Origin: Novipirellula galeiformis
GTDB taxonomy: Bacteria > Planctomycetota > Planctomycetia > Pirellulales > Pirellulaceae
Assembly: GCF_007860095.1 (NCBI RefSeq)
Contig: NZ_SJPT01000008.1
Span: 233,461 to 297,460, forward strand
Length of the DNA: 64,000 nt
Direction: 5' to 3'
The position numbers and the translations under genes were made by a program. The notes beneath the pieces were generated by a model that made no database searches, was not told the DNA's origin, and was given only the letters and a program-made list of their open reading frames with translations. This document shows, one piece after another, positions 32,404 to 36,365 of this stretch (position 1 is its first letter; the number at the start of each line of letters is the position of its first letter).

Positions 32404-34572
32404 TCAATCGGCCGTTTCGGTTGTTTCAAAGAATTGGCGGGCGGCGCGATGAAATGCGAGGCCCTGCCACTCGGCGGCGTGTTTGCGTGGGATCATCCCG
32501 ATGCATAAGGTCGGCGGTTCGTACAACGTTTGCAGCGTTGCCGTGACCAATTCGGACGGAGTGTCGGTTCGGGCCGCCAGAAACGCCGTGGTTCCGACCG
32601 ATGCAATGCCTTCGGCGGGGATATCGATTCCCGGATAATCGCGGGACTCAATTGTCATCGGACGTAGGGTTGGGTGTTGCAGCGAGATTTGGATGGGAGT
32701 CGGGATCGACATTAGTTGCCAGCGATGGTGACGGATTAAGTTTGCGACCAATGGGCTGCCCAATCCAATGCAGATCACAGCCACATCGGGCGCGGTATCG
32801 GATTGAAGATCTTCCCACGCCAAGACTTCGCGAACCGCCATCTCGGGAGTGATGTTGAGCGATTCGAAGACCATCTCGGTCGTCGCTCGCGATCCGCTTC
32901 CCAATGGGCCGACCGCGACGCGATGTCCATTGAGATCGCTGAGCGTGTTGACGTTCGCGTCCTGACGCACCAAGAAGTGCACGACTTCGAAAAACAAAGG
33001 GGCGACGACGCACAGCGGATCTCCGCTGATTGCCGAAGCCTGCACGGGCGCAAGGTGAACCTCGCCACGAAGTAGACGCGTTCGATTGTCGAGAGATCCG
33101 TTGCTGCTAGCGACCGCCGTGGTCACTTTGTATTTAGCCTGCAATCGCTTGGCAATCGAGTTCGATACCGTGTTGTAAACGCCGTTTTCGTGTCCGCCTG
33201 CGAACCGCACAATGCGGGGCATCGATTCTTTGTGTTGTTGCCAAAGCAGGGCAAGGCCGGTGGCGATAAAGGGAGTCATTAAGAGCAGGAGCAGCATCGC
33301 GGCTTGGAAGCGACGATGTGACAACGATGCGCTGACCATGCGTCGGCCCGAGACCGCAGCAACCAAGGGGACGCCTTCGAGCCAATGCCATATTCTCACG
33401 GGCATCGACCGCGGTCGTGCCGTGATGGGACGATCGTCAAGAAATGCATCGAGGTCGTCGGCGAGTTGTCCTGCGGATGCGTAGCGCTTCTGTGGATTTT
33501 TTTCTAAGCACTTCGCAATGATCGTCTCCAGATCGACCGGGGCATCCGAGCGAAACGAACGCACCGGAGGCGCCGGATTGTGAACGACGTCCAGCAACGT
33601 TTGCATGACAGTCTCTGCGGCGATCGGAGGTCGCCCGGTCAGACAGGCGAATAGGATCGCACCCATGGCGTACACATCGCTCTGACGATTCGCCCGGTCG
33701 CTGAGTCCGCCAGCCTGCTCGGGAGCCATGTAATGAGGCGTTCCCAGAGCGGCCCCCGTTCCCGTCACGCTGCTATCGCCATCCATATGTTTGGCTAAAC
33801 CAAAGTCGGTCACATGGACTTGGTCTTGTTCGTCAATCAGGACGTTAGCCGGTTTTAGATCGCGATGCAGGACGCCCTTGTGATGAGCGTGGTCAATCGC
33901 GCGGGCCACATCACGAACGTAGCGTGCGGCTTGTTTAGGGTCCAGGCATTCTGCGTACAACTTGCGCTGCAAGTCGCTGCCACAAATGTACGCCATGGAA
34001 AAGAAATGATGTCCCGCGCGTTGACCAAATTGATAGACCGGAACGATACCGGGATGGTTCAATCTCGCTACCGCCTGGGCTTCGGTATAGAAACGTCGCA
34101 CATCGGATTCATCGGCTAGCATGCCGCCGCGAATCATTTTGACCGCCACCATCCGGTTCAATTGTTTCTGATTTGCCAAATAGACAATGCCCATCCCTCC
34201 TTTGCCGAGGACGTGTTGCAGTTCGTAGTCGCCCAGGTCAAACGGCAGCGTCGGTCCAGGATCGTTCTTGGCGCGCGGGGCCATCGGCAGCGTGATGGCG
34301 GGGTCGACGTTGGATTGTTCTCCCTCGGCGAGGTTGAGAGCAACCGTTTTGGCGCCGTGGTCGGCGACCCGTTGGCTGCTAGATAACCCTGATGCCAAGG
34401 TCACTTGGCCAAGCAAGTCAGCCGCTTCCATCAACTGCTTTAATTGGTCTGCGACACCGGGAAACTGCTTTAAAAAATCTTCTCGGCTTGTTAATTCACC
34501 CGCATCACATGATCGCAGATAGGCCGCAAAGGCCTCGTCAACAGGATCTGCAGTAGGGTCGTTCTCAGCCAT
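32404..34572 (-). CDS. Transmembrane Ser/Thr protein kinase with extracytoplasmic TAXI (TRAP-type) solute-binding domain
   Basis: Receptor-type kinase, 722 residues from the ATG at 34572 (an upstream ATG at 34635 adds 21 low-complexity residues). N-terminal planctomycete motif DEAFAAYLRSCDAGELTSRE is followed by a Hanks kinase domain (about 115-382): glycine loop LGKGGMGIVY, VAVKMI, the catalytic loop HRDLKPANVL, DFGLAK and APEQ. One membrane helix (about 423-446, FQAAMLLLLLMTPFIATGLA) comes next. The remaining about 270 residues match TAXI solute receptors: RFAGGHENGVYNTVSNSIAK, GEVHLAPVQASAIS, SDLNGHRVAVGPLGSGSRAT. PASTA or WD40 sensors are the usual C-terminal parts; a TAXI domain suggests ligand (e.g. 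carboxylate) sensing. An ECF sigma factor gene lies 158 bases upstream on the same strand. Confidence 0.92.
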   Translation of the reverse strand: MAENDPTADPVDEAFAAYLRSCDAGELTSREDFLKQFPGVADQLKQLMEAADLLGQVTLASGLSSSQRVADHGAKTVALNLAEGEQSNVDPAITLPMAPRAKNDPGPTLPFDLGDYELQHVLGKGGMGIVYLANQKQLNRMVAVKMIRGGMLADESDVRRFYTEAQAVARLNHPGIVPVYQFGQRAGHHFFSMAYICGSDLQRKLYAECLDPKQAARYVRDVARAIDHAHHKGVLHRDLKPANVLIDEQDQVHVTDFGLAKHMDGDSSVTGTGAALGTPHYMAPEQAGGLSDRANRQSDVYAMGAILFACLTGRPPIAAETVMQTLLDVVHNPAPPVRSFRSDAPVDLETIIAKCLEKNPQKRYASAGQLADDLDAFLDDRPITARPRSMPVRIWHWLEGVPLVAAVSGRRMVSASLSHRRFQAAMLLLLLMTPFIATGLALLWQQHKESMPRIVRFAGGHENGVYNTVSNSIAKRLQAKYKVTTAVASSNGSLDNRTRLLRGEVHLAPVQASAISGDPLCVVAPLFFEVVHFLVRQDANVNTLSDLNGHRVAVGPLGSGSRATTEMVFESLNITPEMAVREVLAWEDLQSDTAPDVAVICIGLGSPLVANLIRHHRWQLMSIPTPIQISLQHPTLRPMTIESRDYPGIDIPAEGIASVGTTAFLAARTDTPSELVTATLQTLYEPPTLCIGMIPRKHAAEWQGLAFHRAARQFFETTETAD

Positions 34573-34730
34573 AGCGGGTCGTGGCGTGTGAGGGGATAAA
34601 GGAGAGAGGCGTGCGGTCGATTCTAACGCAGGCACAAGCCGAAGCCCCAGCGGGGCGCTGCAATTGCAAGGAGGGATCCGCAGGGGGAGCTTTCCTTTCC
34701 TAGCCCGTTACGTCTCCGTAACCCGCTTGT

Positions 34731-35378
34731 TTAGAGCCAGGGGCTCATGTCTTGGTCTAAAATCGTACGAAGTTTTTGTAGCCCTCGTTTCAGTAAACCA
34801 GCCACGGCGGTGTCGCTCTTGCCCATGCGTTCGACAATTTCGGCTAAAGGAAGGCCTTCCATATAACGCAGACGAATCGCTTCGGCTTGAGTCTCCGGCA
34901 ATTCGTGAAGTGCTTCTAATAACGCGATCGTGGCTTCGTCGCGAATCGCAACCCCACTCGGGCTGGTCGTGCTGCCGGGAAGCTGTTGAATCCAGCCAGC
35001 GCCACCGGAATCGTTGGGGGAGGGCCGGTTTCCGTCGACCTCGCGCCGGAGCGATCGCTTTTGCGTGGTGACATGGCGTGTGACGGCGGTAGCGACATTG
35101 TTTTTCAAGACACCGCGTAGCCAACCCGAAAATTCGGCGGGGCTGGTGCCGCGAAAGGACGCCAAATCCCGTTTGGCTTCTAAAAAGGTCAACTGGACGA
35201 TGTCCGCAGGATCAATGCGACGGCGCAATCGTTCCGACAGGAAGCGATGGGCTAACATCAATAGGTATCCTCGGTAACGCTCCAAAAGGAGTCCAAGCGC
35301 ATCGTTGTTGCCCTCTTTTGAGGCAACGACGAGTTGAGTAGTTGATTCGAATCGCTCCACGCTCAGATCGCCTGTCAT
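34731..35378 (-). CDS. ECF-type RNA polymerase sigma factor, planctomycete kinase-associated group
   Basis: 215-residue sigma factor. The ATG at 35378 is preceded by GAGGAACGA and excludes the Cys/Ala-rich upstream part of the open frame, which overlaps the opposite gene. Region 2 includes LLLERYRGYLLMLAHRFLSE and DPADIVQLTFLEAKRDLASF; region 4 is LHELPETQAEAIRLRYMEGL with helix-turn-helix PLAEIVERMGKSDTAVAGLL. A linker of about 45 residues separates the two. No anti-sigma gene is adjacent. Instead a receptor kinase gene follows on the same strand, as in known ECF groups controlled by Ser/Thr kinases, so phosphorylation control is a reasonable inference. Confidence 0.9.
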   Translation of the reverse strand: MTGDLSVERFESTTQLVVASKEGNNDALGLLLERYRGYLLMLAHRFLSERLRRRIDPADIVQLTFLEAKRDLASFRGTSPAEFSGWLRGVLKNNVATAVTRHVTTQKRSLRREVDGNRPSPNDSGGAGWIQQLPGSTTSPSGVAIRDEATIALLEALHELPETQAEAIRLRYMEGLPLAEIVERMGKSDTAVAGLLKRGLQKLRTILDQDMSPWL

Positions 35379-35531
35379 TCGTTCCTCGAAAACCTTTGCT
35401 GGAAGGCTGTACACGCAACGCATCGACGTCGGTACAATCAGTTTCTCGCCGCCAACATCGTGCTTCGCTGCTGCCGCATGTGCTTTGCATGCGGCATGCA
35501 TGGTGGGCACACGGAACCTGATTATAGAAGA

Positions 35532-36365
35532 ATGAAAGAACCTCGGATGGCCAAGAATCAATTAAACAGTTGCTTTTCGCATTCTCGACCCAATCGCTTG
35601 AATTTACTGGCGTTGGCGATGGGGTTTGCCATCGTCGGGTGTGGAGAAAAGGGGACCGAAACGCCCGCCGATGCACCGACGCAAACCTCGGCGGTGGCAC
35701 CATCGGAACCACAAACGGTGACCGAGGGCGCGGCCGCGACCGATTCGGGCAAGTCGCAGCAGGCGTCCGAAGCGCCTGGGAGTCTGGAATTGCCTCCGGG
35801 CGATCTGCCTGCGGCGGAACCGAATTCACCATCCCCCAAAGGTAGCGGGGGGATGGAGATGCCCGACGTCCAAGTCAGTCGCAAGCCGCCTCTGCAATCT
35901 TCCGCAGAATCCGCTGCCTCGGAGGTGGTCTATGGATCGTTACAAGAGGTCCAGGATCGGGTTGCCAAGACGGGCAAGGTAACCATCGTCGACTTTTGGT
36001 CGCTGTCCTGCCAACCCTGTTTGGAAGAGTTCCCAGGCTTGGTTCGTTTGCAGAAGCAGTTTCCTGCGAAAGTTCAATGTTTCTCCGTCGATATTGATTT
36101 TGATGGCCGGAAATCGCGTCCTCCAAAGTACTACGAAGAACGCGTTGCCGCGTTTGTTAGCAGCGTCGGAGCGACGTTTCCCAACTACATCAGCAGCACC
36201 CCGAGCGACGAAATTTATGCCAAGTTAGAGCTCGATTCGATCCCGGCGGTCTTGATCTACGATGCCGAAGGCAAGTTGGTCAAAAAGTTTGTCGATGCCG
36301 GCGATACCGCAGGTTTCAGCTATGACGACGATGTCATTCCGTTTGTCAAACAAATGATGGAATAA
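35532..36365 (+). CDS. Thioredoxin-like (TlpA/ResA-type) lipoprotein
   Basis: 277 residues from the ATG at 35532 (ATG at 35547 is also possible; upstream codons overlap the sigma factor's promoter side). Signal sequence with lipobox LALAMGFAIVGC, then about 100 residues rich in Ala, Pro, Ser and Glu. The thioredoxin fold begins near VVYGSLQEVQDRVAKTGKVT, with active site CQPC in VDFWSLSCQPCLEEFPGLVR and the cis-Pro in LDSIPAVLIYD. CxPC is less usual than CEPC in TlpA or ResA and CGPC in thioredoxin. An envelope-anchored reductase or oxidase of protein or cytochrome thiols is likely. Divergent from the sigma factor, with 153 bases between starts. Confidence 0.9.
   Translation: MKEPRMAKNQLNSCFSHSRPNRLNLLALAMGFAIVGCGEKGTETPADAPTQTSAVAPSEPQTVTEGAAATDSGKSQQASEAPGSLELPPGDLPAAEPNSPSPKGSGGMEMPDVQVSRKPPLQSSAESAASEVVYGSLQEVQDRVAKTGKVTIVDFWSLSCQPCLEEFPGLVRLQKQFPAKVQCFSVDIDFDGRKSRPPKYYEERVAAFVSSVGATFPNYISSTPSDEIYAKLELDSIPAVLIYDAEGKLVKKFVDAGDTAGFSYDDDVIPFVKQMME

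Follow-up and report, generated by a model that had tools for sequence, protein, structure and literature searches.

The window analysed here is a 64,000-nucleotide stretch of the Novipirellula galeiformis genome (contig NZ_SJPT01000008.1, positions 233,461 to 297,460 of the forward strand). On its minus strand it encodes a receptor-type Hanks kinase whose C-terminal half is a TAXI domain, a solute-binding domain best known from transport systems, and directly upstream lies the gene of an extracytoplasmic function (ECF) sigma factor. Starting from this single gene, we found a conserved family of kinase-TAXI genes in the Pirellulaceae, which is co-inherited with the sigma factor. The co-inheritance is the strongest argument that receptor and sigma factor are a functional pair. 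ECF sigma factors linked to kinases are already known; the TAXI sensor is the new part. We propose that an external ligand would act through the kinase on the sigma factor, an explanation to which, taken as a whole, we give about even chances of being correct.

The receptor joins a Hanks kinase to a TAXI domain

The receptor gene (32404-34572, minus strand) encodes 722 amino acids when read from the ATG at 34572; an alternative GTG start at 34635 would give an open reading frame (ORF) of 743 amino acids (32404-34635, minus strand). A first-pass annotation of the window had described a Hanks kinase domain, one membrane helix and a C-terminal segment resembling the solute receptors of TRAP transporters of the TAXI type. 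Profile matches (Pkinase, PF16868, TIGR02122), hydropathy and fold prediction confirm this layout, and the two stretches of protein sequence quoted at the time are both present in the receptor.

The kinase domain covers residues 116-365 (33478-34227, minus strand; Pfam Pkinase, 6.2e-50) and has the VAxK lysine, the HRD and DFG motifs and the activation-loop threonines of a Hanks-type receptor kinase. Its landmarks are K145, E164, HRDLKPAN at 236-243, DFG at 256-258, and T270 and T278 in the activation loop. In an alignment of 94 family members, K145, E164, H236, R237, D238, K240, N243, D256, G258, T270 and T278 are present in all 94 rows, and F257 of the DFG motif in 93, the remaining row having an unknown letter at this place. 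The single membrane helix (residues ~425-443; 33244-33300, minus strand) has a mean hydropathy of 2.29 in the window protein and corresponds to a helix at residues 417-449 of the structural model. Hydropathy reaches at least 1.6 at this region between kinase and TAXI domain in 94 of 94 rows. In 10 of the 94 receptors hydropathy also marks a further segment elsewhere; the window protein is one of them, with two weaker hydrophobic stretches that lie within its TAXI domain. The TAXI domain itself (residues 453-722; 32407-33216, minus strand) is recognised by profiles, fold model and pocket residues and is predicted to lie outside the membrane. Pfam finds Pkinase as well as NMT1_3 in each of the 40 members of the receptor alignment. 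For the whole receptor, the AlphaFold model has a mean pLDDT of 81.2 and a pTM of only 0.53, so the arrangement of its domains is not trustworthy.

A conserved pocket in the TAXI domain

The C-terminal half of the receptor scores 77.3 bits against NMT1_3/PF16868 in Pfam (cut-off 27) and 95.2 bits against TRAP_TAXI TIGR02122 in NCBIfam (cut-off 84.35; residues 449-707 of the 743 amino acid form). A profile built from 40 TAXI domains of the family recovers seven distinct sequences from the PDB at E up to 0.001, the best being 1us4 (2.8e-39). Several of these entries are named TAXI, others 'immunogenic protein', and 1us4 'GluR0 ligand binding core'. Moreover, the AlphaFold model of the TAXI part alone (pLDDT 92.7, pTM 0.90) retrieves 1us4, 9ibo, 8u79, 9ibp (two chains), 8s4j and 4ddd as rows 1-7 of a Foldseek search of the PDB. 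The match to 1us4 has an E value of 8.6e-22 and a TMq of 0.88, the first row beyond the top seven an E value of 2.2e-9, and the top seven rows are proteins also recovered by the sequence profile. Profile and fold thus agree that this is a genuine TAXI domain, and an unrelated fold is excluded.

TAXI proteins are usually free or lipid-anchored and serve a transporter, which is not so here, since the domain is fused to a kinase. In the N. galeiformis genome (30 contigs, 7.4 Mb) the receptor alone matches PF16868 at E up to 0.001, and the TRAP permease family DctM gives one marginal match. A Pfam scan of three neighbouring proteins revealed a single transporter, a Na/H exchanger-TrkA protein.

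Glutamate bound to the TAXI protein VcGluP is reported to be contacted by, among others, Y45, S75, Q93, E125 and the main chain of G156, and the Gln and the Tyr are termed critical for binding (PMC11574862). According to a profile alignment, and counting along the chain, these residues correspond to Y466, S493, Q511, E529 and G560 of the receptor. Across the 94 receptors, Tyr is found at the first position in 91, Ser or Thr at the second in 89, Gln at the third in 92, Glu or Asp at the fourth in 93 and Gly at the fifth in 91. All five are kept together in 88 of the 94, including the window protein. From these residues, the receptor probably senses an amino-acid-like molecule.

Kinase-TAXI genes form a conserved family in the Pirellulaceae

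We ran a 40-row profile of the whole receptor on 199 sampled Pirellulaceae genomes from 68 genera (below, genomes are numbered G, loci L and genera g). The scores fall in a step: at 653 bits and above all matches are kinase-TAXI genes or contig-cut pieces of them, the next score is 539 bits, and from this row on the matches listed are confined to the kinase part. After removal of the duplicate rows L001, L060 and L115 (98 to 95 genes), the family, collected with domain profiles, comprises 95 distinct kinase-TAXI genes in 23 of the 68 sampled genera. One of them, L176, was excluded for its length from the kinase tree and from the 94-row alignment. Two contig-cut kinases, L174 and L177, are counted as present in the genome table and stand outside the 95 genes, the match of L177 showing the kinase part only. 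A 953 amino acid ORF with a TAXI match and without a kinase match (L056) was left uncounted. Two genes, L178 (G153) and L179 (G025), are second kinase-TAXI copies that share a separate long branch, and three have one in-frame stop within the matched region (G006 and G072 of genus g7, L136 and L138; G141 of g46, L129).

Across the phylum, 2 of 392 genomes matched the receptor at 1e-150 when the best two candidates per genome were scored, and both belong to the Pirellulaceae. A TAXI-only profile matched 69 of the 392. Apart from the two receptors, 20 frames of at least 600 amino acids were listed; 14 of them are included in 20 places fetched from these matches. At none of the 20 places does the ORF with the TAXI match also match a kinase. 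Beyond the phylum the search consisted of a single strict peptide scan, which returned two near relatives.

Linkage and co-inheritance with the sigma factor

With the ATG start of the receptor at 34572 and the last base of the sigma gene at 34731, the two genes are separated by 158 bases (34573-34730), which bears out the spacing and the shared strand given in the first-pass annotation. In this gap the scan detected no terminator-like site on the minus strand and one on the plus strand (34707-34722). A sigma gene lies directly upstream on the same strand of 62 of the 95 kinase-TAXI genes, in 17 of the 23 genera, and overlaps the called kinase start in 17 of these 62 loci. L172 is probably a 63rd linked locus with a miscalled kinase start. 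On the kinase tree, the label 'sigma adjacent' requires 5 changes, compared to a mean of 26.8 after shuffling, a procedure that ignores relatedness.

To score the presence of the sigma factor we used a line of 245 bits, which was set after seeing a gap between 245.8 and 224.3 bits in the search of the 199 genomes with a sigma profile. The sigma factor is present in 96 genomes and the kinase in 95, two of the latter being contig-cut. Both genes are found in 91 genomes, the kinase only in 4, the sigma factor only in 5, and neither in 99 (odds ratio 450, Fisher p 1.4e-44, with genomes treated as independent). The co-occurrence of receptor homologues and sigma factor, for which a neighbourhood scan had been suggested, is thus seen both in adjacent genes and in whole genomes. 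Among the kinase-only genomes, a sigma gene does lie beside the kinase in G044 and G127, but it is divergent or partial. Among the sigma-only genomes, the sigma gene of G138 stops 90 bases from a contig end, one of the two sigma copies of G024 stops 200 bases from one, the sigma gene of G031 precedes a kinase without TAXI match, and G136 and G189 have no kinase near it.

In four genera presence varies between genomes. In g3 (9 genomes: 3 with both, 6 with neither) and g46 (13 genomes: 11 with both, 2 with neither) the presence of one gene tracks that of the other in every genome. In g23, 10 genomes have both genes, 2 the sigma factor only and 1 neither; in g38, 2 have both, 1 the kinase only, 1 the sigma factor only and 1 neither. 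Moreover, both genes are retained in genomes where they lie apart. Such unlinked sigma factors were taken as orthologues by their scores and by a tree whose support is moderate. In the 16 fetched loci of unlinked sigma genes (L114, L118-L123, L185-L193), no kinase ORF follows the sigma gene; in L120 a short kinase-like ORF lies ~2.8 kb upstream.

The ECF sigma factor and its candidate switch

The sigma gene (34731-35378, minus strand) encodes 215 amino acids from the ATG at 35378. The protein scores about 215 bits (214.9-215.1) against TIGR02984 (Sig-70_plancto1; cut-off 183.75), and 23 of 23 aligned sigma factors match the same family at E up to 0.001. In a FastTree tree the high-scoring group is not cleanly monophyletic, since four low-scoring sigma factors fall inside its best split (support 0.72). 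An anti-sigma gene had been reported as absent. In agreement, a Pfam scan of three neighbours (a thioredoxin-like protein, a methyltransferase and a Na/H exchanger-TrkA protein) gave no match to an anti-sigma family; smaller ORFs lie outside that scan.

In the ECF43 group, the acidic DxxD motif of region 2.2 is reported to be replaced, with a phosphorylated Thr providing the charge, and a Thr in the linker of the ECF43 member EcfK also matters (PMC13147305). We compared the high-scoring group with 13 paralogues. The group comprises 84 sigma factors, 62 linked and 22 unlinked; L172 was added to the linked ones, and L159, a partial ORF that is also off the sigma tree, was left out. Residue 63 in region 2.2 is acidic in none of the 84 and in 7 of the 13 paralogues. 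Residue 109, the Ser of a KRS motif early in the sigma2-sigma4 linker (35052-35054, minus strand), is Ser or Thr within a KR[ST] motif in 82 of the 84 and acidic in none, and the paralogues have Ser (4), Asp (6), Asn (2) or Ala (1). Because this exchange of Ser and Asp resembles the pattern of a phosphosite, S109 is a candidate phosphorylation site. Another stretch of the linker, S139-P140-S141, was rejected as a specific site; it is near-invariant in the group, yet common in the paralogues too.

A proposed signalling pair and its alternatives

We propose that the two genes encode a signalling pair. The TAXI domain, which would be located outside the cytoplasmic membrane, would close around a small organic molecule, with an amino acid like glutamate or glutamine, or a near analogue, as the most likely candidate. 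Closure would be passed on to the N-terminal kinase in the cytoplasm and alter its state, probably that of dimerisation. In turn, the kinase would switch the co-inherited sigma factor, most likely by direct phosphorylation with S109 as the first-choice site, and the sigma factor would redirect RNA polymerase to a regulon. The first-pass annotation had envisaged a small-molecule sensor that signals by phosphorylation to the sigma factor. The build of the receptor, its catalytic core and pocket, the linkage and the co-inheritance all fit this idea; control by the ligand and phosphorylation of the sigma factor are the steps that we infer. A more detailed version, which we consider unlikely in its entirety, takes the receptor to be a chemoreceptor kinase of the glutamate type with a fused sensor. 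The transporter-derived TAXI domain would bind an amino acid from outside the cell, and the kinase would gate the sigma factor through a phosphate on S109, the loss of an acidic residue 63 making the sigma factor phosphate-dependent. With S109 where several paralogues have Asp, the switch would then sit in the linker between sigma2 and sigma4.

A number of observations weigh against the signalling pair or parts of it. The linked sigma factors retain the acidic DxxD of region 2.2 (D56 in 61 of 62, D59 in 62 of 62). The ECF43 mechanism is therefore not simply transferable to the window sigma factor, and activation at region 2.2 as a direct copy of it is ruled out. Three of the six paralogues with Asp109 also precede a kinase, so that Asp at this position is no marker of kinase-free sigma factors; the 13 paralogues are, moreover, a small and mixed sample, 8 of which precede kinases. 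These points weaken the case for S109, which we regard as a candidate and no more. In the pocket, Y200 of VcGluP, which flanks the ligand, corresponds to I600 in the window protein and to I, V, A or L in 93 of the 94 receptors, and two of the six receptors that deviate from the pocket motif are the second copies L178 and L179, which have lost most of it. Since the equivalent of Y200 is aliphatic, the ligand may differ from that of VcGluP: the core that grips an amino acid is kept, and the opposite ligand-facing wall is different. The sigma gene is not called adjacent in 33 of the 95 kinase-TAXI genes (13 in g11, 9 in g23, 4 in g28, 2 each in g25 and g59, one each in g32, g37 and g44). Four of the 33 are no more than 700 bases from a contig end, and a fifth is L172, whose overlapping sigma gene was missed by the gap rule. 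The sigma gene is located elsewhere in genomes of g11, g23, g25 and g28 and in one g37 genome, and two genomes of g59 (G059, G098) have the kinase without a close sigma match; both speak against a simple obligate pair. Finally, the sigma genes have no shared -35/-10 dyad upstream in the 53 of 62 linked loci with the anchor motif. The best dyads reach 3 genera, equal to shuffled sequences, and up to 8 loci compared to 3 for the shuffles, with near relatives retained. We read this as an absence of any autoregulation signal, and no regulon can be derived from it; the promoter and terminator scan likewise gave nothing exceeding shuffles.

Some of these observations can be read differently. The kinase might phosphorylate a third protein, such as an unlinked anti-sigma factor, an FHA protein or RNA polymerase, with a sigma factor that is itself constitutively competent. 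With DxxD kept, the sigma factor may bind core polymerase without a phosphate; moreover, g59 has retained the kinase with no close sigma factor, and in several genera the two genes lie apart. However, in most clades no third gene is found beside the pair, the thioredoxin-like gene being present in 32 of 95 loci and 6 genera, and the partner that tracks the kinase is the sigma factor itself. We consider such an indirect link somewhat unlikely. As to the sensor, the TAXI domain might have lost the ability to bind a small molecule and now serve in protein-protein contacts or as a structural module, in which case the receptor would sense a periplasmic partner or the state of the cell envelope. This would fit the altered domain-2 pocket residue, the loss of the motif in the two paralogues and the profile alignment, in which a loop of ~15 residues present in the aligned solved TAXI proteins is missing after Q511. 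Yet the five motif positions are kept together in most receptors despite TAXI domains that are just 24-73% identical to that of the window (40-row alignment), and we regard the loss of ligand binding as quite improbable.

It is also conceivable that the adjacency reflects a general habit of planctomycete ECF sigma genes to precede kinases, and the co-occurrence the shared ancestry of clade-specific genes, with no functional link. The N. galeiformis genome encodes five TIGR02984 sigma factors above the cut-off, and four of them, including that of the window, directly precede a Hanks kinase; a weaker match, L094, is likewise followed by a kinase. Two of the three other kinases have TPR repeats, and the third has no Pfam domain beyond kinase-like ones. 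Sigma-then-kinase is therefore a common arrangement, one that fits the Ser/Thr kinase-linked ECF groups described in PMC8999054. In addition, genomes are not independent samples, and the 245-bit line was chosen with the gap in view. What argues against mere habit or ancestry is the retention of both genes when they are unlinked, and their joint loss or presence within g3 and g46. We thus judge this explanation very improbable.

Neighbouring genes and other TAXI proteins

The thioredoxin-like gene (35460-36365, plus strand) is divergent from the sigma gene, and its homologues elsewhere occupy the same place. In four genera (g36, g46, g12 and g55) the receptor gene is followed on the same strand by genes for a HAMP/HATPase histidine kinase, in 19 loci, and for a receiver-GGDEF-EAL regulator, in 20 (e.g., L145:7705-9846, plus strand; L071:7770-11962, plus strand; L117:1163-5196, minus strand). 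Their domains were assigned with Pfam on examples only. They suggest a possible link to cyclic-di-GMP signalling. In the N. galeiformis genome, a search for this histidine kinase, run without a positive control, gave no match at 1e-20.

Elsewhere in the phylum, TAXI domains occur in other settings. A class of ~440 amino acid proteins (L206-L212; e.g., L207:3539-4909, minus strand, and L209:4223-5527, plus strand) has no kinase match and gives the top scores outside the family with the receptor TAXI profile. Judged by eye from L206, L207 and L209, these proteins consist of an N-terminal hydrophobic stretch, the TAXI domain, a second hydrophobic stretch and a helical-looking tail. A 636 amino acid protein (L214:3349-5256, minus strand) combines TAXI (residues 41-325) with a match to the membrane part of neurotransmitter-gated ion channels (PF02932, 5.3e-11, residues 528-607), which makes it a possible TAXI-gated channel. 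Two proteins of ~1300 amino acids (L215:2832-6701, plus strand; L216:3155-7075, minus strand) have three PF16868 stretches each, and another of ~1300 amino acids (L218:1064-5212, plus strand) has a trypsin-like domain, TPR repeats and TAXI.

Comparison with known systems

Several groups of ECF sigma factors in planctomycetes are linked to kinases; here the sensor comes from a ligand-binding family with solved amino-acid complexes, which makes input, kinase and output all directly testable in one gene pair. If our proposal is correct, a transporter binding protein has been turned into the sensor of a Ser/Thr kinase, and the conserved Ser in the linker would be a concrete candidate site for the gating of sigma factors by kinases beyond ECF43. 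In agreement with the first-pass annotation, which knew of no such receptor, our literature search, judged by the titles and abstract openings of the papers listed, found no description of a kinase-TAXI receptor, most subscription papers being outside its reach. Iyer et al. 2020 are said to have surveyed the extracytoplasmic domains of ECF43-linked kinases. A text search of a paper on planctomycete kinases (PMC11032199) found no mention of NMT1, TAXI or solutes, and kinases are not mentioned in two TAXI papers (PMC12344293, PMC11574862).

Direct phosphorylation of an ECF sigma factor by an adjacent receptor kinase has been reported for PknS/EcfK of Xanthomonas citri (PMC13147305) and PknT/EcfP of Vibrio parahaemolyticus (PMC8999054). 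These ECF43 systems resemble the window pair in that the gene of a Hanks receptor kinase adjoins that of an ECF sigma factor. However, the sensor of PknS is described as periplasmic TPR repeats (PMC13147305), whereas that of the window receptor is a solute-binding domain, and ECF43 sigma factors lack the acidic DxxD that the window sigma factor has. The same gene arrangement, an ECF sigma gene adjoining that of a Ser/Thr kinase, is described for the planctomycete groups ECF59, ECF61, ECF62 and ECF217, of which ECF62 and ECF217 are exemplified by Rhodopirellula (PMC8999054).

On the sensor side, the TAXI proteins TT1099 (1us4/8u79), VcGluP (8s4j/9ibo) and BP0403 have the same fold as the receptor domain, in which the five VcGluP pocket residues are kept. 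All of them work with a transporter or have been assigned to one, TRAP or, in the case of BP0403, GltS (PMC12344293), whereas the TAXI domain of the receptor is part of a kinase, lacks their loop and has neither a second TAXI protein nor more than a marginal DctM match beside it in its own genome. A further related system is GlnH-GlnX-PknG of Corynebacterium glutamicum, where a periplasmic binding protein for Asp and Glu is reported to control a Ser/Thr kinase (PMC9769921). In that system binding protein, membrane protein and kinase are separate, the target is the metabolic protein OdhI, and the abstract mentions no sigma factor; in the window receptor, sensor, membrane helix and kinase are fused in one protein.

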